From assembly GCA_021292105.1 (NCBI GenBank), contig CM037871.1, positions 53,117,261 to 53,181,260 of the forward strand: a stretch of DNA of 64,000 nucleotides, read 5' to 3'. Positions 10,401 to 57,700 of the stretch are shown piece after piece; the stretch's first letter is position 1; every line of letters starts with the position of its first letter. The notes below the pieces were generated by a model. It ran no database searches. It saw only the letters and a program-made list of their open reading frames with translations, and had not been told where the DNA came from. The position numbers and the translations under genes were made by a program. The DNA comes from Anadara kagoshimensis (taxonomy: Eukaryota > Mollusca > Bivalvia > Arcoida > Arcidae).

Positions 10401-13400
10401 GTCCTCAAAAGACGATAAAATACTACAAATAGTATTAAAAACTCGCAGTGAAATAAATATTATGTAATTTTACCGCCTCGAGTGAATTCAAATTTTTGAC
10501 AATTTTTTCACTTTGTCTGCGCGTGAAATTTTGTTTGATGAATCAATGCGCTGGCCGGGTTGGCTATCCTACTGACTAGATTAAGTTAAAACTGTATTTT
10601 TATATCAAATATTTTTAATTTTATAATTTCGACTGGGATAAAATAACACCTTTACTTCACTCATTTGTCAAACAATCCAGATTTGAGCAAATACGTAACA
10701 GCATGTACTTGACCATTCCATGCTGCATATAAAGATGGTCTCAATTTTTTAGCTCTTTAAAACATACCTAATGTCCTGCTGATTTATCAGAGAACAATTT
10801 TAACTAAGTGGTATGATTTTGCTAGAGTTTCCTGTTTGAGTATGATTGCCAAAATTTGTGCAATTAGTTAGCTATTGTAATGGTGTTGTATTTAAATATC
10901 TGTACCATTTTTTGTAGAAATAAATTTCAAACTAGGAAGTCTTCTATTATGGCCACAATACATTTTAAAGACTTACTTTGCTGCATATTCTGTGTCAAAC
11001 CCAGCACCCTGTACATTTTGCTGTAAATTTTCCACTTCATGCTGTAAAATACCAACAAGCAGAGATACAATAGAAAAAAACCTTTTTCTTTATAAAGATA
11101 GTCTCTATTTGTTCAACTAGCTATTCCTGCTCCCTCCAACTTCCAAAGACTGGCTGCCTTGAAATAAAACATCTTGACTGTAGTGTTCCAGTCAGGATTT
11201 CAAAATGGCAGGTTGCTAATGCAGAAAAAAGAGCAACTTTTTCACACTAAAATGTTCTAAAAATACATTGCTAACTTTTGAATATTACCATGAGGAAAAG
11301 TACACAAACAACATTTTTAGAATGAGAAAAAATACTGATCATTAACATTTTGTACCTAGATCTATACTATACTTAAAACAATAGTACTTATTATATACAT
11401 TTGTACCAATAAGAGAAACTTACATCATTATTTTGTTACAATTTATCTTTTATTGTTACCATGGTTCATGGTTACCAATATTTAATGTTAATTTAAAGCC
11501 ATACTGGGTCATAATTATTAATCACCATTAATCCCCCTTCAGCAATGATTTTTGTTTTTTCAGCCTTCCTCTTGGAAATGGTCCTCACCAACTAGGACGA
11601 GGAGGGACAAATTTCCAACTTTCTTAATTTATCAAGTTTCAGACAAATTTGTTTATGAGTTTATACCTTACCTTTTGTTCTACAAGCTGTGGTAACTATG
11701 AGTTTATACCTTATATTTTGTTCTACAAGCTGTGGTAACTATGAGTTTATACCTTACCTTTTGTTCTACAAGCTGTGGTAACTATGAGTTTATAACCTTA
11801 CCTTTTGTTCTACAAGCTGTGGTAACTATGAGTTTATAGCCTTACCTATTGTTCTACAAGCTGTCGTAACAATGAGTTTATAGCCTTACCTTTTGTTCTA
11901 CAAGTTGTGGTAACAATGAGTTTATAGCCTTACCTTTTGTTCTACAAGCTGTGGTAACAATGAGTTTATAGCCTTACCTTTTGTTCTACAAGCTGTGGTA
12001 ACTATGAATTTATAGCCTTACCTTTTGTTCTACAAGCTGTGGTAACTATAAGTTTATAGCCTTACCTTTTGTTCTACAAGCTGTGGTAACTATGAGTTTA
12101 TAACCTTACCTTTTGTTCTACAAGCTGTGGTAACAATAAGTTTATAACCTTACCTTTTGTTCTACAAGCTGCAGTAAATGAGTTTATAGCCTTACCTTTT
12201 GTTCTACAAGCTGTGGTAACAATGAGTTTATAACCTTACCTTTTGTTCTACAAGCTGTGGTAACTACGAGTTTATAACCTTACCTATTGTTCTACAAGCT
12301 GTGGTAACTAGGAGTTTATAACCTTACCTTTTGTTCTACAAGCTGTGGTAACAATGAGTTTATAGCCTTACCTTTTGTTCTACAAGCTGTGGTAACTATG
12401 AATTTATAGCCTTACCTTTTGTTCTACAAGCTGCAGTAAATGAGTTTATAGCCTTACCTTTTGTTCTACAAGATGTGGTAACAATAAGTTTATAACCTTA
12501 CCTTTTGTTCTACAAGCTGCAGTAAATGAGTTTATAGCCTTACCTTTTGTTCTACAAGCTGTGGTAACAATGAGTTTATAACCTTACCTTTTGTTCTACA
12601 AGCTGTGGTAACTAGGAGTTTATAACCTTACCTTTCGTTCTACAAGCTGTGGTAACTACAAGTTTATAGCCTTACTTTTTGTTCTACAAGCTGTGGTAAC
12701 TATGAGTTTATAACCTTACCTTTTGTTCTACAAGCTGTGGTAACTGAGTTTATAGCCTTACCTTTTCTAGGTTTCCATAAATTTAAAATAATTAGTAGCC
12801 AAATTTCCAAAATTTGTGAAAATATAGTCCTTTTTAAAGTATTTTTCCACAAATTTGCTAAAATAGGTTACTTTTTGAAAGAATTCCTCAGAATTTAGTA
12901 GCCAATGGCGATTTTTGCTACCAGGAATGGAAACATAGCCTTTTGTTCTACAAGCTGTGGTAACTATAAGTTTATAACCTTACCTGTTGTTCTACAAGCT
13001 GTGGTAACTATGAGTTTATACCTTATATTTTGTTCTACAAGCTGTGGTAACTATGAGTTTATAACCTTACCTGTTGTTCTACAAGCTGTGGTAACTATGA
13101 GTTTATAGCCTTACCTTTTGTTCTACAAGCTGTGGTAACGATTTCCTTACGTGTTCTTGAACTCTAAAAAATGCCAGGGAAGGTTCATTTGCTATTATGT
13201 TCATGCTCTCTGATATTCTATCTGAAACTGTCCATTAAATAACACAAATGAATAAAAAAAAAAATATCATCATAATCACATGCATTTATTCAATACTACT
13301 TATAAACAAGGTTTCATTAAATTTAAAATTATTTGTAACATTTGTGAATAAATAGTCATTTATAATGATTTTTTTCACAAAAGTTCTAAAATAGGTTACT

Positions 13401-14030
13401 TTTTGAAAGAATTTCCCAAAAATTTGAAGCTAAAGGTGATATTGCCTACCAGGATGGAACTGTAATTATATGGGAAAAATTCTTACAAACAAGATAAATC
13501 TGATGATAATTACATGTATGTATTTCCATTATGACATATCTTAATAGAATTTGGAAAAACAAAAAATAACAGTTTTTAAAATGGAATTTTATTATAAATT
13601 TTATTATAAATCTTATTATGTGCGACACATCACCCTACAAAACAATGGTATAAACTGTATACAATCTAAACAAGTTCTTAATAATATGTCAGTAAAAATA
13701 AAACATGTTTGTGTACCGGTACATCAAACTTTGTAAATCATAATTCCAAAATATATACTTCTTTTCATAGGAAGCCTTCTATAACACATTCAATCCAGGT
13801 TCAGATCATTGCAATCCTCCTAAAATCTTCAATGTCACCATACAGCTACAGTGAGACATATGGTGTCCATATGATATGCCATAATTATGTATATGTAATA
13901 GGGAAATGAATTACCAGTATCAACTGTTGTTGGTTGTTACCTTTTTTAACTTTGTATTCAAACTCTGTATCCTGTGATTCTCTAAACATCTGATGTGTGG
14001 CAGACATTCTGTTATATAAAGAGTCACCAC
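1229..14030 (-). CDS. BORCS8: BORC complex subunit 8 (BORCS8), six coding exons
   Basis: BORCS8 is a subunit of BORC, the cytosolic complex on lysosomes that recruits Arl8 and links lysosomes to kinesin. Coding exons in transcript order: 13941-14007 (exon begins at 14030, ATG at 14005-14007), 13115-13227, 10977-11041, 5544-5651, 4885-5022 and 1229-1337 (stop at 1229-1231). All junctions are GT-AG and all phases agree (1, 0, 2, 2, 2). The product is 199 residues. Residues 21-117 match the vertebrate protein closely, including KKVSDRISES (21-30) and ANEPSLAFFRVQEHV (35-49). The last two exons add a hydrophilic Ser/Thr/Gln-rich tail, making it longer than human BORCS8 (about 119 aa). The 20 bases before the ATG are 5' UTR, so a further non-coding first exon should lie above 14.9 kb. 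Introns 2 and the 5' UTR intron carry arrays of their own splice junctions. The tail exons are less certain than the core. Confidence 0.87.
1380..1680. repeat. Degenerate interspersed repeat in BORCS8 last intron
   Basis: Contains phrases that look like the 3' part of a common molluscan repeat (CATATCTTTAATGTTTATGG, GCATAGGTCAAGGTCA, then a G run and CATTTATCTGTC). No ends or target duplications were found. The assignment rests on pattern memory only. Confidence 0.4.
1771..3138 (+). mobile_element. Repetitive element with AGCTCACCTG / CAGGTGAGCG ends and ~143-bp internal monomers
   Basis: The left end reads AGCTCACCTGAGC and the right end CAGGTGAGCGTTAAGGCCC, so the outer bases are inverted (GCTCACCTG against CAGGTGAGC). 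From about 2280 to 3110 it holds roughly six imperfect monomers of about 143 bp, each carrying AAAGGTCAAGGTCACAGATG and TATAAACTTTTTGTATAGGC. A shorter relative lies at 56303-56663 and loose monomers at 61575-62170. No transposase is seen; superfamily not assigned. Confidence 0.7.
3246..3360 (-). mobile_element. tRNA-derived SINE fragment (minus strand)
   Basis: On the minus strand this reads as a box-B-like GGTTCAAATCTCACTTGGG followed by a SINE body with GGTTTTTTCTGAGCACTCTGG, closely resembling the SINEs at 46994, 54032 and 54899. Its tRNA-like head continues directly into the 54-bp array at 3351-4480. Confidence 0.7.
3351..4480 (-). repeat. 54-bp satellite built from a SINE tRNA-like head, ~21 copies
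   Basis: The unit is 54 bp, seen on the plus strand as GAGGGGTGACAGGTTCAGTG followed by ATCCGGAAGTGTGTTTTAGA and CCCCCTCGACCACT. Read on the minus strand each unit starts AGTGGTCGAGGGGGTCTAAA, which resembles the A box of a tRNA-derived SINE head. The single box B lies only at the low-coordinate end. Because 54 is a multiple of three, both strands show long open frames (for example 3334-3969); these are artefacts. Units near 4140-4260 are shortened or carry a G run. Confidence 0.85.
5226..5260. repeat. (CT)n microsatellite
   Basis: Uninterrupted CT dinucleotides in BORCS8 intron 4, about 200 bp from the acceptor of the exon at 4885-5022. Confidence 0.9.
5708..5808. repeat. ~50-bp tandem duplication
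   Basis: Two copies of a unit beginning ACAAACATACCAATCCATG and ending CCCAAAGCAAAGTAA. It lies just upstream (in transcript sense) of the BORCS8 exon at 5544-5651 but does not include exon sequence. Confidence 0.85.
5914..6097. mobile_element. MITE with TACAGTCTAACCTG / CAGGTTTGAGTGTA ends
   Basis: Outer bases form an imperfect inverted repeat flanked by TA, with internal AAAGGCCACC and GGTGGCCTTTATA segments also inverted. Relatives lie at 50519-50697, 50741-51109 and 52265-52425. The TA boundary suggests a Tc1/mariner-type mobiliser, but no transposase is present. Confidence 0.65.
6124..10574. mobile_element. 4.45-kb non-autonomous DNA transposon, copy 1
   Basis: Begins CAGTAGGATAGCCAA and ends with its reverse complement TTGGCTATCCTACTG, a 15-bp terminal inverted repeat. 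It is flanked by ACT on both sides (6121-6123 and 10575-10577), a 3-bp target duplication. The second copy (41013-45541) has the same ends and is flanked by TTA on both sides, which confirms the boundaries. A 28-bp direct repeat starting GAAACTGGTACGTTTTTTGT lies near each end (about 6429 and 10157). The interior has AAAT microsatellite blocks (7020-7560) separated by a recurring spacer around TTAGAGCTGGGACACA, and a nested 155-bp MITE. Short open frames near both ends are conserved between copies but look like no known transposase. Three-base duplications occur in CACTA, Academ and Harbinger groups; I cannot assign one. It sits in BORCS8 intron 3. Confidence 0.9.
8760..8914. mobile_element. 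155-bp MITE, CAGGGATGAAG ends (hAT-like), nested in copy 1
   Basis: Starts CAGGGATGAAG and ends CTTCATCCCTG; flanked by TACCT and TACTT, an imperfect 5-bp target duplication. Identical length to the copies at 15779-15933 and 43710-43864. CAGGG termini and 5-bp duplications fit the hAT group sometimes called hAT5; this is family knowledge, not proof. Confidence 0.85.
11042..11650. other. Interior of BORCS8 intron 2, no feature recognised
   Basis: AT-rich intron sequence between the exon at 10977-11041 and the junction array. I see no open frame, inverted repeat or recognised mobile element here. Confidence 0.5.
11651..13138 (-). repeat. 44-bp minisatellite copied from the BORCS8 exon 2 splice donor, ~30 copies
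   Basis: On the minus strand each unit contains the end of the exon (TTACCACAGCTTGTAGAAC then AAAAG), a consensus donor GTAAGG, and about 20 intron bases (CTATAAACTCATAG). The functional copy is the outermost one: the exon ends at 13115 and the array runs from it into the intron. Units vary mainly as TTATAACC or TTATAGCC (plus strand) and as CTATG, CAATG or CTAGG spacers. The array is split at about 12770-12940 by an unrelated insertion. Most units keep a perfect GTAAG. Confidence 0.93.
12770..12945. repeat. Insertion inside the donor array, related to 13313-13460
   Basis: This block interrupts the 44-bp array. It shares long stretches with 13313-13460, including CTAAAATAGGTTACTTTTTG followed by AAAGAATT and a CTACCAGGA-like end. 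It is probably a small interspersed element; ends were not defined. Confidence 0.65.
13313..13460. repeat. Second copy of the small element in BORCS8
   Basis: Parallels 12770-12945 over its whole length with about one mismatch every few bases, including the motif AATAGGTTACTTTTTGAAAG. It lies in BORCS8 intron 1. Confidence 0.6.
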
Positions 14031-14890
14031 CTACAATGTAAAATGTTATATAAAGAGTCAACACCTACAATGTAAAACATTATATAAAGAGTCACCACCT
14101 ACAATGTAAAATGTTATATAAAGAGTCAACACCTACAATGTAAAACATTATATAAAGAGTCACCACCTACAATGTAAAATGTTATATAAAGAGTCAACAC
14201 CTACAATGTAAAACATTATATAAAGAGTCACCACCTACAATGTAAAATGTTATATATACTCACCACCTAAAATATAAAATGTTATATAAAGAGTCACCAC
14301 CTACAATGTAAAATGTTATATATACTCACCACCTAAAATATAAAATGTTATATGGAGTCACCACCTACAGTATAAAATGTTATATAGAGTCACCACCTAC
14401 AGTGTAAAATGTTATATGGTGTCACCACCTACAATGTAACACGTTATATAGGGTCACCACCTACAACATACTGTAAAATGTTATATATAGTCACCACCTA
14501 CGTGTAAAATGTTATATAAAGAGTTACCATCTACAATGTAAAATTTATATATAGTCACCACCGAGAAAATAAAACGTTATATAGAGTCACCACCTACAGT
14601 GTACTGTAAAATGTTATATATAGTCACCACCTACAATGTAAAATGTTATATAGAGTTACAACCTACAATGTAAAATGTTATATAGTCACCACCTACAATG
14701 TAAAATGTTGTAGATAGAGTCACCACCTACAATATACTGTAAAATGTTACATATAGTCACCACCTACAATGTAAATGTTATATAGAGTTACCACCTACAA
14801 TGTAAAATGTTATATAGTCACCACCTACAATGTAAAATGTTGTAGATAGAGTCACCACCTACAACATCAAATGTTATATAGAGTCCATTT
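14011..14890 (-). repeat. 34-bp minisatellite copied from the BORCS8 splice acceptor, ~25 copies
   Basis: The minus-strand unit is ATTTTACATTGTAG (intron, ending in AG) plus GTGGTGACTCTTTATATAAC (start of the exon, 5' UTR). The functional copy is at the low end: the exon begins at 14030 and its 5' UTR is followed by AGA and the ATG. Copies extend up to about 14890 into the intron. Between 14041 and 14230 two variants alternate, giving a 68-bp higher-order repeat; distal units are more degenerate (GAGTCACC, TAGTCACC). Confidence 0.92.
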
Positions 14891-15778
14891 CACTGTCATA
14901 TATACCAATTTTCACTGGAATTCCATTCCAAAAGAGATGTGTAACAATTTTCTGGAATTCTAGTCACTAGTGTACTAGTGTCATCAACAGTCTATACCAA
15001 ATTTTACTGAAAATCAAAAGAAATTTAACATTTTTATGGAATTCGAGGGTCATCCATACCAAATGGAATTCCAGAGGGTTAGTAGTAATATTTTTGGTGA
15101 ATTCTGCTTTTATCCATAAGGGAGGTGTATGGAGTAAATCTGGAATAGCTCTAGGAGTAGAATAGCTCATTATCTTAGACAAGGTGTTAAATTAAACATG
15201 TAAACAGTTGGTTTGGCAAAGGTGGTATTATCATTACCAATCATTTTCTTGTGTTGTGCATATACGTAGCTTAATGCATGATCCATTAATTGATCATTTA
15301 GACAAATAAATGACTAACAATCTGCTAAAACTCATCCTAGTGAATAAACACGGAAGTAAATACTCGTGGATAAAATACAAATGGGACAGAGTAAAACGTC
15401 AACCGGAACTTTCAATTTTTTAAAATTTTAAAATGAAATAGTGGCATTTGGTTTTTTGTTGACGTTGTTTAAAATGTGCCTATCAAGCGGGTTAAATATC
15501 ATAGGTTATCACGTAAAATCAGATGTCGCTGGTAAAATTTATCCTATTCACACAGGTCACATTTACAGTTATCTCCCTGTGACAGAATTCTCCTGTTTTG
15601 TTTGATTTTACCACAGCACAGAGTAGGGCTACGCATTGCTTCACAACCAAATTCTGATTCAATCACACTGCCCGACTACAGGTTAATATTTCCTCATAGC
15701 AGTGTTTGTTGGGGGTGGGGGGCACTCATACTCTATGGCATATATAATATAGCCAGTGGAAACAACTACTTCACAGTT
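14891..15778. other. 5' flank of BORCS8; probable promoter and first exon zone, not resolved
   Basis: A non-coding first exon of BORCS8 (minus strand) is expected because the ATG exon has an upstream acceptor. I could not fix its donor or a transcription start. 14915-15075 contains repeated GGAATTC-type phrases, probably a small repeat. Confidence 0.35.
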
Positions 15779-18086: not shown

Positions 18087-18171
18087 TCATCAAATGTTTT
18101 GTTTATTGTAGCAAACCTAGCAACAAATATAAATTGTAACCATGCGCACTAATAGATAACCAGACGTAACC

Positions 18172-20599
18172 ATGGAAATAAAGGTCAAACAGAGATCACA
18201 GGAATGGTTTGATCAAAGGTCATCAGTAACTTTAACTGCTTCAAGATTTGGAGATGTTTTAGGCCTTGGAAGAGGGAAACCTTATGATTTCTTCATGTCA
18301 GTGATATCAGATGATAATGGAGATCCTGAACAAACTGATTCTATAAAACATGGTATTGAAATGGAGTCTGTAATTCACGAGGCATACGAGTTGTTGACAG
18401 GAAACAAGACTAGAGAATCAGGATTCTGGTTACCCTGTCTAGATAATACAATGAAAGATCTGATTGGTGCTTCACCAGACGCTGTTGTTTATGATGTCGT
18501 TGACAGTAAGAAGGAGGTAGGATTGTGTGAATTCAAAGCTCCGGTCTATAGGATGTATAACAAAGAAAATAGCATTGGTGGTATACCACGGTATTATATT
18601 GCTCAGATTCAGGGACAAATGGCAGTCACTGGTTTTTTGTGGTGTGATTTTATGGCAGTTTGTGTGAAAACAGAAGAAATTATGTTGAAAAGAGTGTTTT
18701 TCCAACCAGACTATTGGCAAAAAATTTCTACTGTTATCAGACAGTTTTGTTTTGCAGTTCAGGTATGATTTATATGGAGGGTGTAGGCCTGTAGGGTGAA
18801 ATATTAAACTCTATGTCTTGTACCACATTTTTAAGTTCAGTACTTGTTCTGTAAATGAGGCATTGTAGTTGGAATCTTTGCTGGGTCAGTTGCTATAGCA
18901 GAAAATTGGTAATCTCTAGTGACTGTTATATTGCCAATCATTCTGTCAGAGACTTGAAAATTGTTGGAATCTATAGTAATTAGCCATAAATGTACTAATT
19001 CATGTTCAAATCACAACCATCGAAGTTAAAACTTTTAAAACTTGGAGATTAAGATAAGTAAAGCATGTGAACTTCCATCAGGGAATTGATGCCCGGTGCT
19101 CCGGAAAGTGAAGCGCTTCTTGTTTTATTGCCAAGCACTTCATTCATTTGAATAATGCTGTTAATATCATTGTCTCCACCACAGTATGTACACCCAACTT
19201 TTTGTTACATTTTTTTAAACTACCTTCTGCCGTTGTAATTGGGGAAAATTTGAAATTCTGAAATACAGCAAACTGCATTATGACATGCTTGCAATAACTC
19301 AGGATCCTCATTGCAAAGATGTTATATTGTAACAATATCTAACATGTTGTGGGTAAGGGCAACTATAGTACGGTAGATTTAATTTGCAGGTATATCACTG
19401 TATTGAGAATTTTAGTGGTCAAATTGGGAAAATTTAGTCATTTTTTCCCAGGGGTAACTATCATTTTAGGCAAACAAAATCATTGTACACAAGTCATGAA
19501 AAAAGGACTTAAGTACTTATTGTCATTTAAAGGTGTTGCTGCAACATTACCCTTAACAGGTGAAGTGCTTGACTTGTAAAGTGCATGACTGGTGAAGTGC
19601 TTGATTGGTGAAGTATTTGATTGGTGAATCACTTGACTGATGAAGTGCTGGACTAGTGAAGTGCTTTACTGGAGAAATGCTTGATGGGTGAAGTGTGTGA
19701 CTAGTTAATTGTTTTACTGGTGAAGCGCTTGTTTGATAAATCTTTTGACTAGTGAAGTGCTTGACTGGTGAAACACTTGAATGGTTAAGTTCTTGACTGG
19801 TTAGATGCTTGACAGATGAAATGCTTGAATGGTGAAATGCCTGACTGATGAAGCACTTGACTAGTGAAGCACTTGACTGGTGAAGTTCTTGATTGATGAA
19901 GCACTTGATTAGTGAAGCACTTGACAGATGAAGTGCATGACTAGTGAAGTGCATCACTTGTGAAGCACTTGACTGGTGAATATAAATAAAATCATCTTTT
20001 TGTTAACTGTTAAATTGATAACTAGTGATTATTATCATGGAAGGCATGACATAATCAAAAAGAACCCTTACAGATTGATAAATAAGGTAAAACCTTGTTT
20101 TAATGTCCCTCAATGACTTTTCCATCACACTTATAGCCATACATATGCTGCAATATCAACTTTGTAAATTAAAGTACACAGTTTACATTTAAAATGATTT
20201 TATGAATTAGTTAATAATAATTTTTTTTTTGTTTGACAGGAATCAAAACTCAGAAAACAAGTTCATAAAAACCCTTTAGACTTTGAAGGAGCCAGAAAAA
20301 TCAAGGAAATGTTGTTCCACAAAGACCTTTATCCTGGTGAAGATCTGATCATTATTCAGGATTTACTGAAGAGAAATATTCCTACAAAGACAATGTGTGG
20401 ACCATCTAAATTATGGTTATCATATGACTTTTTGATGGGAAAACCCTACAAACTACCTACAACATTACAATTTTATGCTCACAGTTTACTCTGGCAAGTT
20501 GATAGAGAGGTGGCCTTAAAAGAAAATCATTTGATTCAAGAACGGGACCTGCTTCAAAATTCAGAAGATAATAAATATATTTACCATATGAGTTTTTGA
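18172..20599 (+). CDS. YqaJ/lambda-exonuclease-family nuclease, two exons
   Basis: Exon 1 is 18172-18762 and exon 2 is 20240-20599; the intron has GTATGA and a T-rich tract ending GACAG, and the phase is 0. The 316-residue product has the PD-(D/E)XK fold signature of YqaJ-type viral recombinase/lambda exonuclease: SRFG (24-27), an acidic GIEMES (61-66), SPDAVV with D103, CEFKAP with E120 and K122, and QIQGQM (145-150). These enzymes degrade one DNA strand from ends during recombination. The second exon (from residue 198) is alpha-helical, charged and not recognised. The start has a good context (ACCATGG). Such genes occur in many molluscs and other invertebrates as lineage-specific families, probably acquired from a virus or mobile element; whether this one has a host role is unknown. 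No partner recombinase gene is adjacent. Confidence 0.85.
19210..19440. repeat. Interspersed repeat in the nuclease intron, paired with 47450-47640
   Basis: Shares ordered phrases with 47450-47640 (AACTACCTTCTGCC, TGGGAAAATT, GGATC(C/T)TCATTGCA, GGTAAGG.CAA, GAAAATTTTAG). Ends not defined. Confidence 0.55.
19558..19978. repeat. 16-bp minisatellite, ~26 copies
   Basis: Degenerate unit TGAAGTGCTTGACTGG inside the nuclease intron. It does not match either exon junction of that gene, so it serves as a contrast to the junction-derived arrays. Confidence 0.9.
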
Positions 20600-21099
20600 A
20601 AAAAATGTATTAATGATGACCTACATGTGGTAATAATTTACCAACCAGGCACTTCAAATTACCACAGAGATGATGTATGGATGTAATTATGTGCAGAATA
20701 GATTTGAGGATCTCTGTCAAATATTTCTATATCATTGATTATGGAACTAATGGGTAAAAATCCTGCATCATTGTTTACGCTTGATTGTATGAAGTACAGA
20801 AGAGTCACATGAGCATCAGCCCATCAGGTATAATACACACACTCCCTGTGTGAGTATATCTCACTCCATCTGTGTGTATGTTGTGTGAGTGTGTGTTGTG
20901 TGTGCATGCCTCAGTCCATGTCTCAGTGTATCTCACTCTTGTGTGAATATGCCTCACTTCCTGTGTGTATGTGTGTGGGTGTGTCATTCCCTGTGTGAGT
21001 ATGTCCAATACTATGTTAATCAAGTCATCAACATTGATTCAGTGTTGAAATTTACTATGGTATGCATTATTTTATCATGCTTACAGAAAACATTTAATC

Positions 21100-21705
21100 C
21101 AGATATCTTGAATGTTTAGGAGTGTGTCAACCTAGATATCATGGGACATTTATGAGTGTGTCAACCCAGATATCATGGATGTTTAGGAGTGTGTCAACCC
21201 AGATATCATGGATGTTTAGGAGTGTGTCAACCCAGATACTGTACAATGCTTATATTTCACTATGGTTTTATTTTCGCTATATTCGCGGTCAAGTGTATTC
21301 CCACGAAAATTAAACCACCGTGAATAGACACCGGTTTTACCAGCCCATTAATCTTGCTAGAGTCGTTTTCCTTGAATCGGATAAGACATGAAAATATGAC
21401 ACTGCGAATACACTAGTCATCGTCAAACCGCGAAATTTGGCACCTTGAAAATAAAGCAATATACAGTATCATGGACATTTATGAGTGTGTCAACCCAGAT
21501 ATCATGGACATTTAATGGACATTTATGAGTGTGTCAACCCAGATATCATGGACATTTATGAGTGTGTCAACCAACCCAGATATCATGGACATTTATGAGT
21601 TTGTCAACCCAGATATCATGGACATTTATGAGTGTGTCAACCCAGATATCATGGACATTTATGAGTGTGTCTACCCAGATACCATGGACATTTAGAAGTG
21701 TGTCA
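21100..21705. repeat. 32-bp minisatellite GAGTGTGTCAACCCAGATAT-type
   Basis: Unit of about 32 bp (GAGTGTGTCAACCCAGATAT plus CATGGACATTTA). Roughly a dozen copies, interrupted by a 228-bp MITE at 21239-21466. It lies downstream of the nuclease gene. Confidence 0.9.
21239..21466. mobile_element. 228-bp TA-flanked MITE inside the 32-bp array
   Basis: Begins CTGTACAATGCTTATATTTC and ends GAAAATAAAGCAATATACAG, an imperfect inverted repeat, flanked by TA on both sides (21237-21238 and 21467-21468). Neighbouring array units read CAGATATCATGG without it, which gives the empty site directly. Tc1/mariner-type by target and length; no coding capacity. A diverged relative may lie near 63010-63120 (ATTCGCGG and CGGTCAAG). 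Confidence 0.88.
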
Positions 21706-22214
21706 ACATCAATGTGTATGTTGAGTTTTAGAGTTCATTGTACACTTTTACACACTGAGCTTGAGACAGAGTGATGGCTATTTTTCTCACATCCAATTCT
21801 TTAGAAAACTATTACATAGACATTGTTATTTCAACTTATGTTATATTTTGTTTAATATTAATGCAGTTTTTGAAATGAATTTTAATGAATAAATTGTACA
21901 TTCTATTGTTTATTTTGTCTGTTAAGTAATATAAACATGCCCGACACTATGACACAGTTGTTCCAAGCTAGATTTGTTTTAATGATTGTTTAACTCAAAA
22001 TTTCAAAACCAGTAGAAACTAAAGCTTCATTATAAAATCTGAATTGAATTCTAGTCACTTATGATATATTAAGCAACTCTGTTGCTACAAAACTTTATAA
22101 TAAAGGCTATGTGAGAAACAGGTAATTAAACCAATTAAGCTTTGAGAAACTGGAAGATCATGTGACCTCATGATTTGTCCATGTGTACATCTGTAACACA
22201 CATTTTTCTACATC

Positions 22215-22515
22215 TACTCAGAAACTACCACTATGTGGCTCCCTTCTATGTTAGTTGTGAAATATGTAGTGACGGTATTTTCCCAGCACTCCCCATTTAG
22301 AAATGCCTTTAAGTAACAGTCCTTGGGAAGATACTTTAAAAACCGGTGACCTGTGTCATGGCAGTCTTGGCACCTTAAAAAAACCATCCCTGCACATTGC
22401 ACTGAAATGTACTGCAAAGGTGGAACCAGTTCACATATAGCTGATGATGTCTCGATATACAATATGTGAAAGATTCTTGACTGGGACGTAATTTAACCCC
22501 ATTCAATCAATCAAT
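22215..22515 (+). mobile_element. SINE body and tail, head missing
   Basis: Shares with the next SINE a body ending in CTGATGATGTCTCGATATAC, TTCTTGACTGGGACGTAA and CCATTCAATCAATCAATCC. No box A or B was found, so it is 5'-truncated. Confidence 0.7.
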
Positions 22516-22718
22516 CCTCTGTAACTACTTGACCAATATTCACCAAACTCCACAAGAAATTGGGGATTTTTCAAGTTTGACATTTTGGTTGTTGTAGCTA
22601 TACTCTGAGAGGATGTCATAGTATAAAACCTTCTCTAAAGCAGAAAATCCTAGATAAAACTGACTACATATCATCAACTTCCACCGACTAGAAGTAATTC
22701 ATAGAATAACACACTTTT

Positions 22719-23046
22719 ACGGTTTGACCACACCAGTTAGAAGAGTGCTCGCTTCGTATGTGGGAGGTCTAGGGTTCGAACTCCGATCAAGGTCAATACT
22801 TGAAAAGAGTAGATACAGTTCTTTTGCCTATCACTTGCCTTTTAGAAATGAAAGTCACAAGGTCCTTCGAAATCTACTTTAAAAAAATTCCTTTTGTATG
22901 TGTGGTACCTAAAAGAACCCTTCCTACACATTGACCTGAGCGCACTGCAAAGTCAAAATTTCTGCCACTTCATTTTTAGCTGTTGACGTGTCGATATAAG
23001 TGAAATAATCTTGATTTGGACGTAAAACCTTATTCAATCAACCCTT
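22719..23046 (+). mobile_element. tRNA-derived SINE, near full length
   Basis: The head resembles a tRNA, with box B as GGGTTCGAACTCCGA at about 22771. The body is shared with 22215-22515 and 35780-36092. The tail is GTCGATATAAGTGAAATAAT followed by CTTGATTTGGACGTAAAACC and ATTCAATCAA. Transcription would be by RNA polymerase III on the plus strand. Confidence 0.8.
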
Positions 23047-42470: not shown

Positions 42471-45400
42471 AAATAAATAAATAAATAAATAAATCAATAA
42501 ATCAGACATTCTACAGAGAAATAACTTAGAGCTGGGACACAATATGTTGAGTAGGTTAGTGATGATAAATAGGGTAAATACATAAAAAGAGATCAAAATA
42601 AGTTGCATTTTGTCTTTCCTCAAGGTACTAACATGAAATGTGGCATGGGTACCATGGAAAGTAACCTCAGATATTTTTTGGAAAAATAAAACAAATATTT
42701 TTATATGAACAAAATTAACATTTAAAAAATAAAAGATATTGAATTACTAAAAAGTTAGAAAAATTTATGAACAGGCAGATAGTTAGAAATTTTGTCATAT
42801 TGTTGTTTGTTAAATGAATGGCAAGTGGGCCATAATAGCATTTAAAAGGACTAAAATTGTCTAAATTATAAAAATTAATTTAGAAACTACACAAACAGGT
42901 GATTTTTGGGGGGACAGGTACTTTCTAGTTGTTCTGGCTGTGATAAATAGATAAATCATTTACAAATAAATCAAAAACTATGGGATCATATGGCAGTGTT
43001 CATTCTAGAAAGGGGCTGTTGATCCTTTATTTTGCCAAATGGCACCATTGTAAAGGCCATAGTTGGCCACATCTGAAATTAGATTTCAAATGCAAGTTCA
43101 AAATATTTGATAGCATTGTCATATATAAAAGCTACATTATATGAAACTTTTAAATACTTCATTACAAAAGCTTTTACATCAGCCTAAAAGACTACAAGAC
43201 ACATCAAACATTAGATGTATGCAAAATCATTGATGTTATTCAACTTGTTATTAGAGGAATTTTATTAGAAATGAACCCATCTGAAAAAATCCTAGAATGA
43301 ACACCCATGGTTATTACTATTTACACATAATGGAACATTTTTCAAAGAAAAATGCATTATGTGTGTCTAAACCAACTTTGTAAAATGTAATAATGTTGAA
43401 TGTCTCATTTCATGTAAAATTAAAACATAACAATATCTTTAATACACTAGGAATTAGATATCATCAGACATTTATGAATGTTTCATTTTATATAGAATTA
43501 AAAAAATCAACACATATCAATATCCTTAACATACTGGGAATTATATACCATTACACATTTATGAATTGAATGCTTCTCTTGATACTGAATACTTCTTTTT
43601 CACCACATGAAATGCTTTTCATGCACCCTTGCCTGAAGTGTAGCATAGGTTAAAATCTTACTATGTCAGAAAGTTTGCCAGTTCTCTTGTTGAGGGGTGT
43701 GATTTACTTCAGGGATGAAGCCTGAATATTTTGAGTTTGGGGCCAGCTCACTTCATAAAAAAATTTGTAACAGTACTAAACAGCTTAAATGTGTAAACAT
43801 TAAGTGGCCCATACTCGAATTTAGAAGCCATTGGCTACTGGGCCCCTGCAAATCTTCATCCCTGTACCTATTTTCCTCCTTAATCTCATTTACCTGATTA
43901 TAATTGAAATAATCTTGAATGGGGTGTGTATACCAACCAATCAATTCTAAATTTAACTGATAAATCAATAAATCTGGGATAGGCCTAGTGTGTTACAATT
44001 ATTTTGAATTCTTACAAACTAATAATGCCCATTTGGATACACTGTGTCATGAATTTCACTGCATTTGCATCATCTTATTTCTTAATGCTATTATCAAACC
44101 AGTTCCCATGAATTTTCCTAAAAGAAGGTGATATTTATTTATTAGAATTTTACAATTTAACAGAAATTACTGAAATTCCTAAATATTTTACAGATCTGTA
44201 TTTAATCATTATAATATGGAGTTAAATTTTTAACCAAGTCAAATAAAATCCACATGATTGGTATTCACTTTTCCTATTTCCACATAGTCTATTTTAAATG
44301 TTATTTGTGCTATGTCAAGTTGACTTAAAACTTTTAATGAAGCAAAATAATCAACTTTTAATGTCTAAATTGTACTAAAATAATAATGCCGGGGTTATTG
44401 GCATCAGAACAGAAACAAAAATTCAAATAATAAAGACCAATGTTGTGTAACTTGTGTTGACTCTGGCTAAACTAACATGGGAGATGTTTCCTCATTTTGG
44501 GAAATATTTCATAAAGAAAAATCCAGTCTAACCATCTTTAATGATATTAGCTTATTTATCCAATGATATGTACTGATATGACAGACAGGTCCTGTTTATA
44601 TTTTGCCAGCAAAGCAAAATCAGTTGGTAATTTTCAGTAATTCTGAGTCCCTAACTAGCCCTACATGGGCAGGTTGCACTGTACACTGTATTGGTACAGA
44701 CCCCGAGTCCATATGGGTAAAATTAGAATACATGCATATCTAATGAGTTCGGCAGCCATGCAGATCGATCATACATGACAAATAAGGCAAAAAAGCTTGA
44801 CTATTTTGTCCAAAATACACGATGACATTTTCTGCATGCTAAAATTGTGATCGAAGCGGGACGAATGCTAATCAAATATGTCCGACTGGAAGTAGTTCCA
44901 AAAAATCGGCAGATTAGACGAGAAATGGAGAGAAAATACAATATTTTTAAGGAAAAACTTACTTTATTTCAACAAAAATATCTCCACAGCGTCTCTCGAT
45001 TATCAAATTTATACATTACATACAATAAGGAAGCTGTCTTAGCATTTTTTCTGTGTCAAATTAGCCGGAAAGGGGGCGGCCCATGATCGAGAATCCGGCA
45101 ATGTCATCGATTTTTTCGACATTTGAAACTGGTACGTTTTTTGTGTAAAGAAAATTATTTGACAAATTATACATCAAAATAACCGTGAAAAAAAGTTCTT
45201 TCCGTTCATGTAAAAACATCTTTGGTGCATGAGGAACTGCGTACACAGAATGATATTTTTTAAAGTTTCAATTTTCAATTTTTCGCCGGTGTCTAACATT
45301 CAATTACGATTTAAATTGTTAAATTCTCACCGACTTTGATAAAAATCGTCTTTAATGACTTACTTTTGTCCTCAAAAGACGATAAAATACTACAAATAGT

Positions 45401-45541
45401 ATTAAAAACTCGCAGTGAAATAAATATTGTTTAATTTTACCGCCTCGAGTGAATTCAAATTTTTGACAATTTTTTCACTTTGTCTGCGCGTGAAATTTTG
45501 TTTGATGAATCAATGCGCTGGCCGGGTTGGCTATCCTACTG
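41013..45541. mobile_element. 4.5-kb non-autonomous DNA transposon, copy 2
   Basis: Same termini as 6124-10574 (CAGTAGGATAGCCAA and its complement) and flanked by TTA at 41010-41012 and 45542-45544. The two copies align over their full length with scattered substitutions; the main difference is expansion of AAAT microsatellite blocks (41940-42500). It contains the same nested 155-bp MITE. The right end lies 164 bp upstream of the MRPS27 start codon. Confidence 0.92.
43710..43864. mobile_element. 155-bp CAGGGATGAAG MITE nested in copy 2
   Basis: CAGGGATGAAG to CTTCATCCCTG, flanked by TACTT (43705-43709) and TACCT (43865-43869). Position within the host transposon is the same as in copy 1, so the MITE was present before the host element was duplicated. 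Confidence 0.87.
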
Positions 45542-45705: not shown

Positions 45706-48700
45706 ATGTCGAGGACATTTTTACGAACTGCTTGCCGCTGTAAAAATGTACAAAAGCATCATGTTCTCAGAGGTAAGCATGATGATTTGAATATCTCTAT
45801 AACATATTTAGTAAATATATTCAATTAGACATGTCACAGTTATCTAATCAATGCATGTTTCTTCAAAATAACGCACCATCCTGCAAGGAAGGTGTCCTAC
45901 AGTTAGGCCTAGTGCCTCCCTCAATCATGGGTCTATTATTGGTTGACAGCGGAAAAAAACTATTCTATGTACAATAAAAATATCCAATATGTACTATTAA
46001 AACCATATACAGTTGTTTAGTTGTCGAGTGTTTTCCTTGTTGCCAGAGTTGAACTGAAGGTATCCAGGTTTAGAATTTTAGTATGGATTACCTTGGAATT
46101 GCAGAAAAATACACAAACCTTTGGAGTTGCAGTAACATTTTGTATTGATGACACTGAAATTCCAGATAAAAGTTACCATAAGCAGTGGTTTCCCTAAAGT
46201 CACAAGGTGACAATAGTTGTCTTTTTATTTTTCGGATTTGGATTGATAATTTGTTGCCTACTGTCTGATACTCCACCATTTATTGTGAATATGTTTTTGC
46301 AATACATATTAGTATTATTACTGCCTAATTTAAGAAAGTCGTCTTCTGCTTTAAAATTTACTGAAAGGGCCGCATAATGCTAAAAATTTCAGGGAAAAAT
46401 ATTTCATTAAGTTGTCATCCGGAGTGTGTATGTGTGTGGGTGGGGGGATATGGAATGTCCCATTTGTACTGGCTGTGGTCTGAGGGAGGTTATTCAGCAA
46501 ACATATGCATAGGAAGAAGGAAAATTGTAAAGATTTTATTCTGGTATGTGGCTGTAGAAATTTGAAGTTGTGAAGATGTATTTAAATAGAATCCTTTGCC
46601 CATTGAAACATCGGCATCTTAAATTATCTGTGGATTTCAGCAGTAGTATAGTAGTAGCATATTCTGTCAATGTGATTTGTGGCTTCTAAAGGCAACTTGA
46701 TCAATAATTTACGGTAGTCAATATACCCGTAGACAGATTTGCAAGCTTTGTCACAAGACTTGGTACATTTCCATGATCAATGAAAGTAAGAATCAATGCT
46801 TTTGACTAAATTTTTTGAAGTTACAGCTAACACTGAATATTTTTATTTATTTTTTTATATGCAATAAATTAATATCATGCTGTCAATATGGTTACCCACC
46901 AATAGTTCAGACAGGTTGGCTAGCTTATCATTTATGAAATCCTTAACTTCATTGAGATTTGAATTAAACAGAGTTATCCGGGGTGGGGGGGGGGGGCTCG
47001 GTGGCTGAGTTGTCTATTAAAACACATGGTAAGGGAACACAGCCCCTCTCACTGTGTAGGTTCGAATCCCACTCAGAACAGATTTTAGTGCAAGAAAGTT
47101 TGTCAGTTTGCTTGCCAAAGGTTGGTGGTTTTCTCTGGATGCTCCAGTTTCCTCAACCACTCCCAATCTGACTACCTCCATTTAAGTGGAAAAAAGAAAA
47201 CATTCTACAATGCCTTGATAATCATAATGGTATTTATATTGATTTATTTGACAGCATTTAAGAGATATTTATTATCTGATGCATACAAGTGTGAAGATGC
47301 CTGGATAAAAAGATTAGATTCACCTGTAATGAAATTGGTAGAATTTAGTAAGTAATAAAGGATTCATTGTTGTAACAAATTGTACTAAGGTATAGATTGA
47401 CAACTAGCAGGAAACAAAATGATGCTGTTTAATGATTTTATTACATTTTGAAAAAACTACCTTCTGCCTTTAAGATTGGGAAAATTCAAAATTGAAATTC
47501 TAATGTATATACCGGTATACCAGCTGCATTACAATAGGATCTTCATTGCAGAGGTTAATATTATGACAATGTGTTTTAGGTAAGGACAATAAGATCAATT
47601 TTGCTATTGTGTTACTGTTGATTGAAAATTTTAGTTGTGAATAGGCCAAACAAAATCACTTCTGTTTACCGGCACTAAATAACTGGACTGGTACTTAATA
47701 ACACAGATTCAGATTGGCTAGAATATTAGCTATATGACAGTTTTACAGACATAATTTTTCTATCTCAATGATTCAGCGCTTAAACATATTGATCCTAAAC
47801 AAGATGATCACCATTCTTTTTAATTTCAAATTCCTGCCTTGTTCAGTATCAAAACTTATTGTTTCAGCTTATGTAACCCAAAAAACTGTCAAACCTCTTT
47901 CGAAATTTCTGTAGAAACAATCTTTCGCTGTTAAATTGTAGTTGATCACCTTTGTCGTTTACGTCATATCCACAGATTTAGATTGTACTACTGCAATTTT
48001 TTTTTTAATTTCATTTTAAAAAAATTTCATAAAGGATAGTTCAAGGCACAAAATTTGTCACAAATTTAAATTCATTAATGTTTATATTATTACAGCACCA
48101 CTTTCCATACAGATGTTTGAAAAACTGAATGAATATAACAGAAGTAGTCTTATTGATATGGATATTGTAAGTACACAATGGTCATCATTGTAGTCTTATT
48201 GATATGGATATTGTAAGTACACAATGGTAATCATTGTAGTCTTATTGATATGGATATTGTAAGTACACAATGGTAATCATTGTAGTCTTATTGATATGGA
48301 TATTGCAAGTACACAATGGTAATCATTGTAGTCTTATTGATATGGATATTGTAGGTACACAATGGTCATCATTGTAGTCTTATTGATATGGATATTGTAA
48401 GTACACAATGGTAATCATTGTAGTCTTATTGATATGGATATTGTAAGTACACAATGGTAATCATTGTAGTCTTATTGATATGGATATTGCAAGTACACAA
48501 TGGTAATCATTGTAGTCATATTGATATGGATATTGTAGGTACACAATGGTCATCATTGTAGTCTTATTGATATGGATATTGTAAGTACACAATGGTAATC
48601 ATTGTAGTCTTATTGATATGGATATTGTAAGTACACAATGGTAATCATTGTAGTCTTATTGATATGGATATTGTAAGTACACAATGGTAATCATTGTAGT

Positions 48701-51700
48701 CGTATTGATATGGATATTGTAAGTACACAATGGTAATCATTGTAGTCTTAATGATATGGATATTGTAAGTACACAATGGTAATCATTGTAGTCTTATTGA
48801 TATGGATATTGTAAGTACACAATGGTAATCATTGTAGTCTTATTGATATGGATATTGTAAGTACACAATGGTAATCACTGTAGTCTTATTGATATGGATA
48901 TTGTAGGTACACAATGGTCATCATTGTAGTCTTATTGATATGGATATTGTAAGTACACAATGGTAATCATTGTAGTCTTAATGATATGGATATTGTAAGT
49001 ACACAATGGTAATCATTGTAGTCTTATTGATATGGATATTGTAAGTGCACAATGGTAATCATTGTAGTCTTATTGATATGAATATTGTAAGTACACAATG
49101 GTAATCATTTTGTTCCACATTGGAAAACTACCCATAAGGTTAGCTTACCAATTTTTGAAAATTTGACCATTTTTACCTACATTAAGGCTATCTTACTACA
49201 AGCATATAAAACTGGGTTTTAGAGTGGGGAGGGTTAGCTTCCCACCTTTGTATTTATTAACAGTTTTGCTAGTTTTTTTACGAAAAAATAGATTTTTGTG
49301 GATTTTTTACTGTATCCTTTTTTGTTTAGAATTTTTTCCTTACATTTTTCGAATAAATGACCTTATTTTTTCCAGAGGAAACTATCTTTATAAAAAGTAG
49401 TCATTTAAGGAAAAAGTACGCTAGTTTTAGTTTGTATCGTCAGATCATTGTTAATATATTTAGTTGTTGTAAAATTTGCTATTAAGACACAATGACACAT
49501 CATCCAATATTGAGAATTTTTATATATTTATTACTTTGATTTGTCTCATATCCTGATCCTGATCTTTGGGACTCTACATTACATAAGAATCACATACTTT
49601 CATTTCATTGACATCACTGAGCATCATTTGTGTTTCTTTTGGAACATGTTAGAAAGTATACTTATTATTTTTGTATTTAAGAAACATTCCAAAAATCAAA
49701 TTTGATACAGCTATAAAGGTCTGTTTTAAGCATGTGAATTTGCTTTTTTGTGAAACACACTTGATATTGTATTTTGATTAAGGAATGTATAATGATGTTT
49801 ATATTACTGTTTTCAGCTTGCAAACAAATTACAAGACATGAAACCAACAGAGGTAGAGTTTGCTGAGTCTCTGATTAACAGGTAAATATTATACAATTAT
49901 GGACTTTTTAGTTGTTGTATATGGTGTGATATTCACCGGAAAAATAAATATTGATCGAGGCGATAGCCGAGGTCAATATTTATTTTTCCGGTGAATATCA
50001 CACCATATACAACCACTAAAAAGTCCATAACTGTTTTATTATATAATTAAGTCACTGTGGCACTTCGGTTGACAATGTTTTCTCAAACCTGTGACCAGGC
50101 AGTCTATCTATTTTACCGATGTTAGATTTCCCTGCCCACCCTGGTTGATCACACTAAAATTATCCCACATTTGTTGGATCAATCTGACTTTCTAAGTCTG
50201 ATTCTATGAAAAAATAAATGGCATTCCGGATGAGACACAATCAATTACACACTACATTGTAAATTGATAATGCCATAACGTCGACGTTCTTTGAAAAAAT
50301 AACAAGACACAATCACTTGCGTACACCTAATTGATGATGTTCTTATCATTTTACGCAGAACGTCAACAAAAATCGATGACGTACACCAAATTCCATATTC
50401 ACCGGAAAATCTGTGGTATATGATGTGAGATCCGATGGTCACGTGTTACCGTTTTAGCCAATCATAAAGATGGAATTTATTAATTATATAATAATGTCCT
50501 GTATGCTATACACAGAATACAGTCAAACCTATCTGTAAAAGTCAGCCTTAGAAACCAGTAAATGTGGCCTTTATGGGAAGGTGGCCTTTGTATAGAGGTC
50601 CAAATAACATGAATTAAGCACAACTTATATAAAATTTAAATTGTCTGTTCAAAGCAGGTGGTCCTTGTGTAGAGGTGATTTTTAAGGTTCAACTGTATTA
50701 CCTATACAAAAATAAATGACACCTACATCTACATCATATGTACAGTCAACCCTGTCTATAAAGGACACCCAAGGGAAGCAGTAAAAGTGGCCTTTATGGG
50801 AAGGTAGCCTTTATATAGAGGTCCAAATAACAAGAAGTCCTTTGTATTACATGGTCTGGTTGAGTTGCAGCAAATTCTTGTCCAAGCGTAGTGACAAAAA
50901 CTTACTGTCTGAAATTAGAAGAAATTTTAAAATTATTGACAATTATTGAAATAAGAAGAAATTTTAAAATTATTAACATTTCAAAATTAGGTCAAAAACA
51001 TAAAAGGCAAAAACATTGAAGGATAACTAAATTTGGGCTTTACTTTTACTGGCCTATAAAACCAGGATGCCCTTATATAGAGTTTGTCTTTCAGGCAGGT
51101 TTTACTGTATTACCTATATAGAAATGACAAACACGTACATGTACATCATCATGATCATATCATATAATAAAACTTGATGACATGATATCTAGGAGTGGGA
51201 TATATTGATAATGGATTAATTAGAATTGCTGTATGCATATCAATAAAAGCTGTGAAAAAATCAATATAATATATGGGCACTTTAAATTCTGCAATTTTCC
51301 ATGTTTGGTTTGACTTTTATACATACCAAAAGCAATGGAATTGTGATGAGCAACAACATTTTAGGCACTGCTGATAGAATTAGAGATCTTATTGTACAAG
51401 CCAATATAAAGTGGTTTACAGCAAATGAATAATACTCATGATTTCAGACATTTTCACAGACAAATGAACAGAATTTTTTTTAATTTAGCACATATTTTCC
51501 TACAATGCAGTGCTCCAAGCAGGTTTTGAAAACTGGTAGCCACATGGCTAATAATTCAAAAATTTCAGTAGCCATTTTAAAATTTTTGTCGCCAGGTAAA
51601 ATTCTTGGTGGCCAAACCTTATAAATTCTTTCTATCACACCACTCGTCTCTACTACAGATTGAATGGTTTAGCGAGATCTTCGGATTGGTCCCACCATGG

Positions 51701-54700: not shown

Positions 54701-57700
54701 AGACAATTTGCATGTGTGTGTGTGTGTGGTGGGGGGGGGGGGGGGGGGGTAATAATTGCATGCTCAATGTTAGTTTGTTATGTACTTCAAATGAAGGAAA
54801 GGGACATTAAGTGTTTATTTCATTTTTTCTGCCAACATTTTGTCTCCTGCTTTTCTTGAGGACTGCATTTTTATGGTGTAAACTAATGAAGTGTGATGCC
54901 TCGGTCAAAATTCTTTCAGTTATATCAAGGTGGTCAATTCTGTAATGGTGGAGGAAACTGGAATGTCCAGAGAAAACCACTGAACTTTGACAAGCAAACT
55001 GACAAACTTTCTCACTCAAACTAGGGTCTGTCCTGAGTGGAATTCAAATATAGGCAGTGAGGGTTGACATGTTCCATAAATGCAGACTGAAGACCATCTA
55101 GCCACTCATATATTAAGGAATTGTCACAAACAATTAACAAATCAAACAAAATCAGTTGAAGTTTGTTGTATAATGTTGATTGACTTTCTTTTAGTCTTGT
55201 AAAACAAATTTCTGAGAGTTTTAATGACACATAAATCCCTCAGGTTAGGTGATGTATTTTTACCCCCTTGCCACCCTCTTGTCTTCAGAGATAATGTTTG
55301 TTTATATATAAATTTTCAAAGGCGTTCCTCTTGGCTTCAGAGATAATGTTTGTTTATATATAAATTTTCAAAGGCGTTCCCTTTTGGCTTCAGAGATAAT
55401 GTTTGTTTATATATAAATTTTCAAAGGCGTCCCTCGTGGCTTCACAGAGGCAAATTTGTTTTATATATATTTTCAGAGGTGTCTCTCATGGCTTTAGAGA
55501 GAAATAATTGTTGTATATATATTTTCAGAGGTGTCCCTCATGACTTCAGAGAGAGATAATAGTTTTATATATATTTTCAGAGGCCCTTGTGGCTTCAGAG
55601 ATAATGTTTGCTTATATATATTTTCAGAGGCACCCATCGTAGCTTGAAATAATGTTTTTATATATTAATTTTCAGAGGCGTGCCTCATGGCTTCAGAGAT
55701 AATGTTTTTATATATATATTTTCAGAGGCGTCCCTCGTGGCTTCAGAGATAATGTTTGTTTATATATGTATTCAGAGGCGTCCCTTGTGGCTTCAGAGAT
55801 AATATTTGTTTATATATATGTTCAGAGGCGTTCCTCTTGGCTTCAGAGATAATGTTTGTTTTTATATATATTTGCAGAGGCGTCCCTTGTGGCTTCCAAG
55901 ATAATGTTTGTTTATATATGTATTCAGAGGCGTCCCTTGTGGCTTCAGATATAATATTTGTTTATATATATTTGCAGAGGCGTCCCTTGTGGCTTCAGAG
56001 ATAATGTTTGTTTTTATATATATTTTCAGAGGCGTCCTTCTTGGCTTCAGAGATAATGTTTGTTTATTATATTTTTAGAGATGTCTCTCATAGCTTCAGA
56101 GATAATGTTAATAATATATCTTTTCAGAGGCATCCCTCATAGCTTCAGAGATCATGTTACAAGAAGACATCAGTAATAAAACCTGTTATCTTATGTCACT
56201 GTATTCCTGTATAAAGTACTATAAACAGCACTATACAACAGTGGAGAATTTGATTACCGAAGATATTCCTCCTGATGTAAGTCTAAATGTCATATGAATT
56301 TTAGCTCACTTATACTACATCATTTTCATAGCAGATGAAAGTCAGAAAATCATGGATTAAAAAGGTCAATGTTACAGACCTTATAAGTATAAGAATACTG
56401 AAATGGCCAAGGATTTTACCTTTGTACTTTTTTCATAGCTATTTATATGTATACTTTAGCAACATATACTTTAGCTAGACCTTAGATATTTCAGATGTAC
56501 GGTAGCATGTTGAGGACAAGTAATAATAATTAACTTGCAAATATTTTGGCATTTGGCCCTTGTTGCTGAAATTTTTTACGGTCCCTATCAATAATGTAAT
56601 TGAACATTGAACTTCTGCATGAGATATGGCATATTCTCAGGTGAGCGTTAAGGATCTCTTGTTTTATTATACTCACTTAATAGCTTTTAATTTAAATATT
56701 CACCCAACAGAGAAGTTTTTACATATTTATTTATCTTAATTGTGCCTGCTTTTAATTTCAGGATGATGAAGAAGAAACATTTAAAGTAGTAGCTTTTATT
56801 CAACCTCCTTATTATGATGACCATTTTGATATCAAAAATGAAAAATTATTACATGGAAAAACCATGTATTTCCTGGGTAAACAGTCAGATGATGTCATGG
56901 GAAGATCTGTACAGCTGGTTGGATTAGGACTTTATGAAAAATTCCCCAAAGCTTTAAAACTTCTTCAAAAATGGATTAAAGAAAATGAAGATCAAGTTGT
57001 TATGAAAGAATCTGTAAGTTATATGAACATGTTTATAGCGTTTCTAGATATGGGACATATTTTATATGATAGGATGTTGTGGTGTGTATGACCATCTGTC
57101 CCTAATGGTGTGTCCAACTTCTCCAATACTGTTGATGATATTTTTTACTTGCTTTAGTATGCATGACTACCAGGATATTGTGTGACATTATGTGACTCAA
57201 TAGAGGAGATATCTCTGTGCCTTGTGCAGATATCTGAGATAGTTTTTTTTCTGTTTTGAAATTAAATAGATTTTGTATGTAAATGGGTCCTTCTTAATCT
57301 GCTTAGTGGTTCACTTCTTATAAGTGTGTTGGTAAACTAAAGATATAGCTTACTATGCAGGGGTTTAAGTGTGTTGGTAAACAAGATATATAGCTTACTA
57401 TGCAGGGGTTTAAGTGTGTTGGTAAACAAGAGATATAGCTTACTATGCAGGGGTTTAAGTGTTGGTAAACAAGAGATATAGCTTACTATGCAGGGGTTTA
57501 AGTGTGTTGGTAAACAGAGATATAGCTTACTATGCAGGGGTTTAAGTGTGTTGGTAAACAAGAGATATAGCTTACTATGCAGGGGTTTAAGTGTGTTGGT
57601 AAACAAGAGATATAGCTTACTATGTAGGGGTTTAAGTATGTTGGTAAACAAGAGATATAGCTTACTATGCAGGGGTTTAAGTGTGTTGGTAAACAAGAGA

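Follow-up and report, generated by a model that had tools for sequence, protein, structure and literature searches.

The stretch of DNA analyzed here, hereafter the window, comprises 64,000 nucleotides from the bivalve Anadara kagoshimensis (GenBank assembly GCA_021292105.1, contig CM037871.1, forward-strand positions 53,117,261 to 53,181,260) and carries the genes BORCS8, on the minus strand, and MRPS27, on the plus strand. A preliminary description of this sequence had noted four minisatellites in these genes, each with a repeat unit that spans an exon–intron boundary. All four were recovered at those places by running Tandem Repeats Finder (TRF) across the window and afterwards aligning the repeats copy by copy. 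In the list below, positions are those of the window, and a clean copy is one that is at least 80% complete and at least 70% identical to the consensus; other copies were dropped before dinucleotides were counted.

11654..13139, minus strand: BORCS8 donor array, running from exon 3 into intron 3; 44-bp unit, 34.0 periods by span, 30 clean copies
14015..14885, minus strand: BORCS8 acceptor array in intron 1; ~34-bp unit, 26.3 periods, 26 clean copies
48144..49109, plus strand: MRPS27 donor array, running into intron 3; 46-bp unit, 21.0 periods, 21 clean copies
55274..56158, plus strand: MRPS27 acceptor array in intron 6; 50–52-bp unit, 17.5 periods, 17 clean copies

Units of the donor arrays hold 25 exonic plus 19 intronic bases in BORCS8 and 23 plus 23 in MRPS27. 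The BORCS8 acceptor unit consists of 18 exonic and 16 intronic bases, with identity to the exon running to 21 bases, and the MRPS27 acceptor unit of about 31 exonic and 19–21 intronic bases. When the copies are aligned and exon ends are placed by homology, the real junction sits in the exon-proximal copy in 4 of 4 arrays, in agreement with the proposal that the outermost copy is the functional site. The arrays also extend only into the intron, as had been pointed out. This property is not separate evidence, however, because any tandem duplication that spans a junction while the exon and its protein are kept intact leaves all of the extra copies in the intron.

Exon models for both genes were built from homologues. 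The following exons define the array junctions or complete the BORCS8 model.

15238..15286, minus strand: BORCS8 exon 1, coding part, MDHALSYVYAQHKKMI + G; placed by tblastn and by spliced alignment to one homologue
13941..14030, minus strand: BORCS8 exon 2, beginning GGDSLYNRMSATHQMF; functional acceptor at 14030 in the outermost array copy, phase 1, from the alignment to homologue P0023
13115..13227, minus strand: BORCS8 exon 3, ending LPQLVEQK; functional donor at its 3′ end, 13115, in the outermost array copy
10977..11041, minus strand: BORCS8 exon 4, homologue-based model
5543..5651, minus strand: BORCS8 exon 5, the last coding exon found; tblastn match of homologue P0024 (E = 7e-26 over 5543–5689)
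48096..48166, plus strand: MRPS27 exon 3, ending SSLIDMDI; functional donor after 48166, phase 0, from ungapped homologue alignment
56128..56276, plus strand: MRPS27 exon 7, beginning EASLIASEIMLQED; functional acceptor at 56128 in the outermost array copy, phase 1, from ungapped homologue alignment

For MRPS27, nine exons were located, from 47255–47347 through 62214–62555, and the first exon is not among them. The spliced product matches the Pfam MRP-S27 profile at 4.5e-77 (profile positions 25–390 of 393), and the spliced BORCS8 product matches the Pfam BORCS8 profile at 3.6e-41 (positions 1–105 of 112). GT and AG ends are present in the modeled introns of both genes that were inspected. Both MRPS27 array junctions, SSLIDMDI|LANKLQDM and KFK|EASLIASEIMLQED, align without gaps to seven homologues, six molluscan and one from Lineus.

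The two BORCS8 array junctions differ in the number of homologues behind them. The exon 3/4 junction, VEQK|HEVENLQ, aligns ungapped to P0023 and P0024, whereas the exon 1/2 junction, MIG|GDSLYN against MQGGDIRYN, aligns ungapped to P0023 only, and the tblastn match of exon 1 is weak by itself (E = 0.48). It is the spliced alignment of exons 1 and 2 to P0023 that identifies the BORCS8 acceptor as a coding, phase-1 junction; without this single homologue the assignment, which we regard as probable, would rest on the splice motif. In 16 of 19 BORCS8 homologues the reading frame runs through directly after the last lysine of exon 3 into a V (GTN) codon, and the remaining three appear to have been spliced. 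P0034, which is among the 16, continues across an intron of ~50 codons and contains no second copy of the motif. These read-through homologues point to an old intron, and an old GT donor, that may have stood at this site. The BORCS8 stop codon at 5543 overlaps a GTAAGT, and although P0023 and P0024 terminate there too, a further exon beyond this motif is possible.

Comparison with Tegillarca granosa yielded additional observations on BORCS8. The clam protein shows 98% identity to a T. granosa protein over 73% of an 81-residue query (~59 residues), with one residue differing in the shared exon 3–4 stretch. Judged by this match, the window would probably come from a blood clam, Tegillarca or a near relative. 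P0024, the public T. granosa BORCS8 prediction, has a start that differs from our spliced model and retains, ahead of exon 5, sequence that our model assigns to an intron; it looks mis-annotated.

The internal structure of the arrays varies. Mean column identity is 90.7% in the BORCS8 donor array, 93.5% in the BORCS8 acceptor array, 98.3% in the MRPS27 donor array, and 90.5% in the MRPS27 acceptor array. In the last of these, the real copy stands apart, with 76% identity to the inner copies compared with an all-pairs mean of 83%. In the BORCS8 acceptor array, three of the six copies nearest the real one are identical to it, in an alternating dimer pattern (lag-2 identity 0.886 vs. lag-1 identity 0.842), and the MRPS27 donor array has a four-unit pattern (lag-4 0.977 vs. 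lag-1 0.967); both patterns are modest signs of expansion. The span of the BORCS8 donor array includes ~170 bp of nonrepeat sequence at about 12765–12940, parts of which resemble, by eye, the region at about 13320–13450.

Array edges bear on how the duplications may have begun. Both donor arrays start and end in the same unit phase, and the sequence flanking them on the exon side does not immediately match the ends of the unit. Direct repeats as the seed of the donor duplications are consequently unsupported, and the edges fit duplication without long microhomology, with later remodeling of the edges being possible. The far edge of both acceptor arrays carries part of one extra exonic copy, which a simple duplication picture does not explain.

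To what extent the inner copies could act as splice sites was assessed with small matrices built from 10 donors and 11 acceptors at the other junctions of BORCS8 and MRPS27; sites scoring within 3 bits of the real site were tested. GT or AG is intact in 27 of 29 inner copies of the BORCS8 donor array, 24 of 25 of the BORCS8 acceptor array, 18 of 20 of the MRPS27 donor array, and 13 of 16 of the MRPS27 acceptor array. Ranked among all adjacent base pairs of the same array, this retention falls at the 44th and 100th percentiles for the BORCS8 donor and acceptor and at the 22nd and 47th for those of MRPS27. There is no purging of inner sites and, taken together, no special preservation of them either; only in the BORCS8 acceptor array does the AG reach the top of the range. 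Each of the inner donors within 3 bits (27 in BORCS8 and 18 in MRPS27) would bring a stop codon into frame 9 or 24 nt past the real junction. Likewise, the upstream AG dinucleotides within 3 bits (57 in MRPS27 and 29 in BORCS8, one of them just outside the array) all lead to truncated proteins. The acceptor cut is loose, and its list includes many implausible AGs, because the real array acceptors themselves score low: with leave-one-out matrices they rank 11th and 13th of 13, and the array donors rank first and fourth of 12.

On all features tested, the four arrays belong with minisatellites already known as mirages in amphioxus and do not form a new class. The preliminary description had stated that no class of repeat with this property was known, a statement contradicted by the amphioxus accounts, which describe the same arrangement, and by the near case of human IFI6. 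Mirages are reported from Adh3 of two Branchiostoma species, from the globin genes BflGb6 and BflGb9, and from other loci (PMC3087553), and a further account adds PGBD5 and names troponin C (PMC3902484). According to the relevant passages of the former paper, duplication can affect 5′ as well as 3′ boundaries, AG or GT is kept by many copies and not by all, the data suggest that regular splicing is undisturbed, and array length is unstable, for Adh3 even in the soma (PMC3087553). Units at the cluster boundaries are reported to escape homogenization, which we count among the likenesses (PMC3087553; PMC3902484).

The clam arrays share with mirages their tandem, minisatellite-like form, a unit made of an exon end and the adjoining intron of the same gene, an edge copy that holds the authentic boundary (placed here by homology), and AG or GT in many, not all, copies. 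The differences are of degree and of host. Amphioxus units are reported to measure 10–160 bp, and the two haplotypes of BflGb6 to carry 6 and 3 of them, whereas the present arrays have units of 34–52 bp and 17–30 clean copies. Amphioxus is a lancelet, and here four arrays occur in two neighboring genes of a mollusc. Undisturbed splicing and length instability belong to the amphioxus reports, whereas the clam arrays are represented by the sequence of one haplotype.

Turri, Cuin and Porter reportedly described in 1995 a minisatellite of the human IFI6 (6-16) gene that provides multiple splice donor sites. This donor-site minisatellite, which is cited in PMC4526556 and PMC2572611 and on those accounts is a near case to the clam donor arrays, differs in that its downstream repeat units are reportedly used and give isoforms (PMC4526556). 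In the clam, inner donors giving translatable isoforms were not found among the 27 BORCS8 and 18 MRPS27 sites tested, all of which run into a stop. The AGGT model of intron gain, as outlined in PMC3443670, likewise relies on a short tandem duplication that makes extra splice signals. It differs in duplicating an exonic AGGT segment to create a new intron (PMC3443670), whereas in the clam an existing junction was probably copied and the intron only lengthened. Among molluscs, an abalone TSSK1-like gene carries an intronic 27-bp minisatellite, and the passages describing it are silent on whether it spans a junction (PMC6905558). Literature queries found no report of junction-spanning arrays in bivalves or oyster, although the queries used specific words and are weak evidence of absence.

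We consider it very probable that the four arrays are mirage-type minisatellites that arose as junction-spanning duplications and expanded into the intron, where they are tolerated since the exon-proximal site remains in use. The process would begin with tandem duplication of a 34–52-bp segment straddling an exon–intron boundary, and growth by slippage or unequal exchange could then have produced the 17–30 clean copies. The exon-proximal copy would stay the working splice site while further copies landed in the intron, and the inner copies would drift as largely neutral decoys. Splicing may pick the exon-proximal site by a mechanism such as exon definition, which would be in keeping with exons of 71–149 nt. 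Tolerance of such duplications, together with local proneness to repeats, is the simplest account of why so many arrays start on junctions.

Several observations weigh against this interpretation. The array acceptors rank low, and sequence score does not explain why they should be preferred over upstream copies that score equally well or better. In the BORCS8 acceptor array, no adjacent pair is better kept than AG (24 of 25 copies). Furthermore, tolerance alone does not predict that 4 of 5 arrays should lie on junctions (P about 1e-5; see below). Finally, the putative use of the outermost site is read from protein conservation.

The placement of arrays was compared with chance using 25 junctions and the 10 TRF arrays that have five or more copies and a period of 10 or longer. 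Lower-copy arrays (e.g., those at 5707, 7197, 21099, 50912, and 61618) and short-period repeats were left out, and a match was scored when a junction fell within one period of the exon-side edge of an array. Of the 5 such arrays inside the two genes, 4 lie on junctions where 0.21 would be expected (P = 1.4e-5), and in the whole window 4 of 10 do where 0.20 would be expected (P = 2.5e-5); both values are post hoc and come from a window selected for the pattern. If the probability per array is set at 15% in place of 4%, the figure becomes 0.002. With the post hoc qualification, the excess over random placement noted in the preliminary description is borne out.

Approached from the junctions, the picture is different. 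A local copy with at least 80% identity accompanies 4 of the 25 junctions (16%), and the remaining 21 reach at most 65%. Of 3000 random positions in the two gene spans, 25.4% have such a copy, a rate that is high because arrays fill about a quarter of these spans; outside the arrays the rate is 4.2%. No junction among the 25 of BORCS8 and MRPS27 is at an early, low-copy stage of duplication.

One alternative is that the introns are simply rich in minisatellites, that four of them happened to fall on junctions, and that the window was picked for the resulting pattern; the arrays would be mirages regardless. A bivalve genome contains tens of thousands of windows of this size, and a P value of 1.4e-5 to 2.5e-5 per window could be reached somewhere among them. 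Arrays away from junctions also exist (57321, 3359, and 19559). In contrast, junction-spanning arrays recur in amphioxus genes that were studied for other reasons, and the arrangement is not the oddity of one window. Chance placement is thus possible, and we hold it to be rather unlikely.

A second alternative, which is compatible with assignment to the mirages, is that a mutational process linked to junctions seeds the duplications, for example through breaks or replication stalls at exon ends that are tied to transcription or splicing. The excess of junction starts over the expected 0.21 and the recurrence of the arrangement in several amphioxus genes speak for such a process, and the edges of the donor arrays, with their constant phase and unmatched flanks, are as expected without long microhomology. 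Against it, the excess is a post hoc estimate from one window, junctions carry local copies less often than random positions do (16% vs. 25.4%), and none of the junctions is at a low-copy stage. The repeat units are AT-rich (28%–38% GC, longest G run 2, G skew 0.07–0.38), and R-loop-prone sequence, which had been suggested as a possible cause, is not favored by this composition. Unusual single-strand structure is equally unsupported, given that five doubled units folded with z-scores of −0.57 to 1.15. We regard a junction-linked process as improbable. Equally doubtful, in our view, is the broader proposal that in several animal phyla a process connected with transcription or splicing makes junctions genuine hotspots of tandem duplication and leaves mirages as its footprint.

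A third alternative holds that selection maintains the serial splice sites, for example for recruitment of U1 or U2 factors, as a buffer against mutation, or for regulation of splicing. GT or AG is retained in most inner copies, the best-kept pair of the BORCS8 acceptor array is AG, and in human IFI6 downstream repeat units are reportedly used as donors (PMC4526556). However, in three of the four arrays GT or AG is kept no better than other pairs, and every inner site tested yields a truncated protein. Selection in favor of serial sites, which the preliminary description had offered as one explanation, finds no clear support here and is very improbable.

An assembly artefact that inflates short duplications can be dismissed almost entirely: amphioxus assemblies are reported to differ in repeat number (seven vs. 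two copies of 60 bp in PGBD5; PMC3902484) and the BflGb6 draft to be aberrantly assembled (PMC3087553), but the clam copies bear distinct substitutions and higher-order patterns, and assembly errors that alter copy number would not alone make units that span junctions.

The window holds other repeats that can be set beside the junction arrays. One of these served as a control.

57321..59569, plus strand: minisatellite in MRPS27 intron 8; 45-bp unit, 50 copies by TRF

The unit of this array has no match at E = 0.1 among 14 exons taken with 30-bp flanks. An origin from exons is likewise unsupported for the nonjunction arrays more generally, with no match for the six units tested. The preliminary description had placed three satellites that do not derive from junctions in the same introns as the junction arrays. 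This is correct for the one at 57337, in MRPS27 intron 8. By the gene models, the array at 3351 lies instead beyond the BORCS8 stop codon (5543), and that at 19558 lies upstream of the BORCS8 coding exons, a placement relative to coding exons, as noncoding 5′ exons were not sought. Tandem repeats of a 145-bp unit family (about 77%–79% identical) lie near both ends of the window, at 2323–3108 and at 61618–62014, the latter inside MRPS27 intron 9.

Larger repeats and mobile sequences are also present. Self-comparison by BLAST reveals a ~4.4-kb direct repeat at 6124–10574 and 41013–45541, with ~92.5% identity between copies 35 kb apart, and one copy sits within BORCS8 intron 4. The region from about 18160 to 35000 encodes a YqaJ recombinase domain (4e-20), an open frame with a chromodomain (1.7e-7), and an open frame of 1220 residues whose start is C2H2-like, which matches endonuclease VII (1e-5) and by eye resembles DNA polymerase B. 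We take these to be parts of a Polinton/Maverick-like mobile element. Between this element and MRPS27, at 36736–38748 on the plus strand, a single 671-residue open frame carries RING and B-box domains and is TRIM-like. A ~232-bp stretch occurs three times at ~660-bp spacing within 26084–27632, and an inverted copy, ~93.5% identical, lies some 8.5–10 kb away at 36090–36315. No relatives of BORCS8 or MRPS27 were confirmed among viral contigs.

What is fresh in the clam arrays is their occurrence in a mollusc, their high copy numbers, and their density, with four in two neighboring genes. That junctions might be true hotspots of duplication is a worthwhile question reaching beyond a single window, and the presence of mirages in a second phylum bears on junction-linked duplication, on the lengthening of introns, and on the possible origin of new introns. 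At such an array, the spliceosome would need to single out the exon-proximal site from at least a dozen decoys nearly identical to it. If such arrays prove common in bivalves, as has been suggested for lancelets, they would offer natural test beds for the study of splice-site choice.

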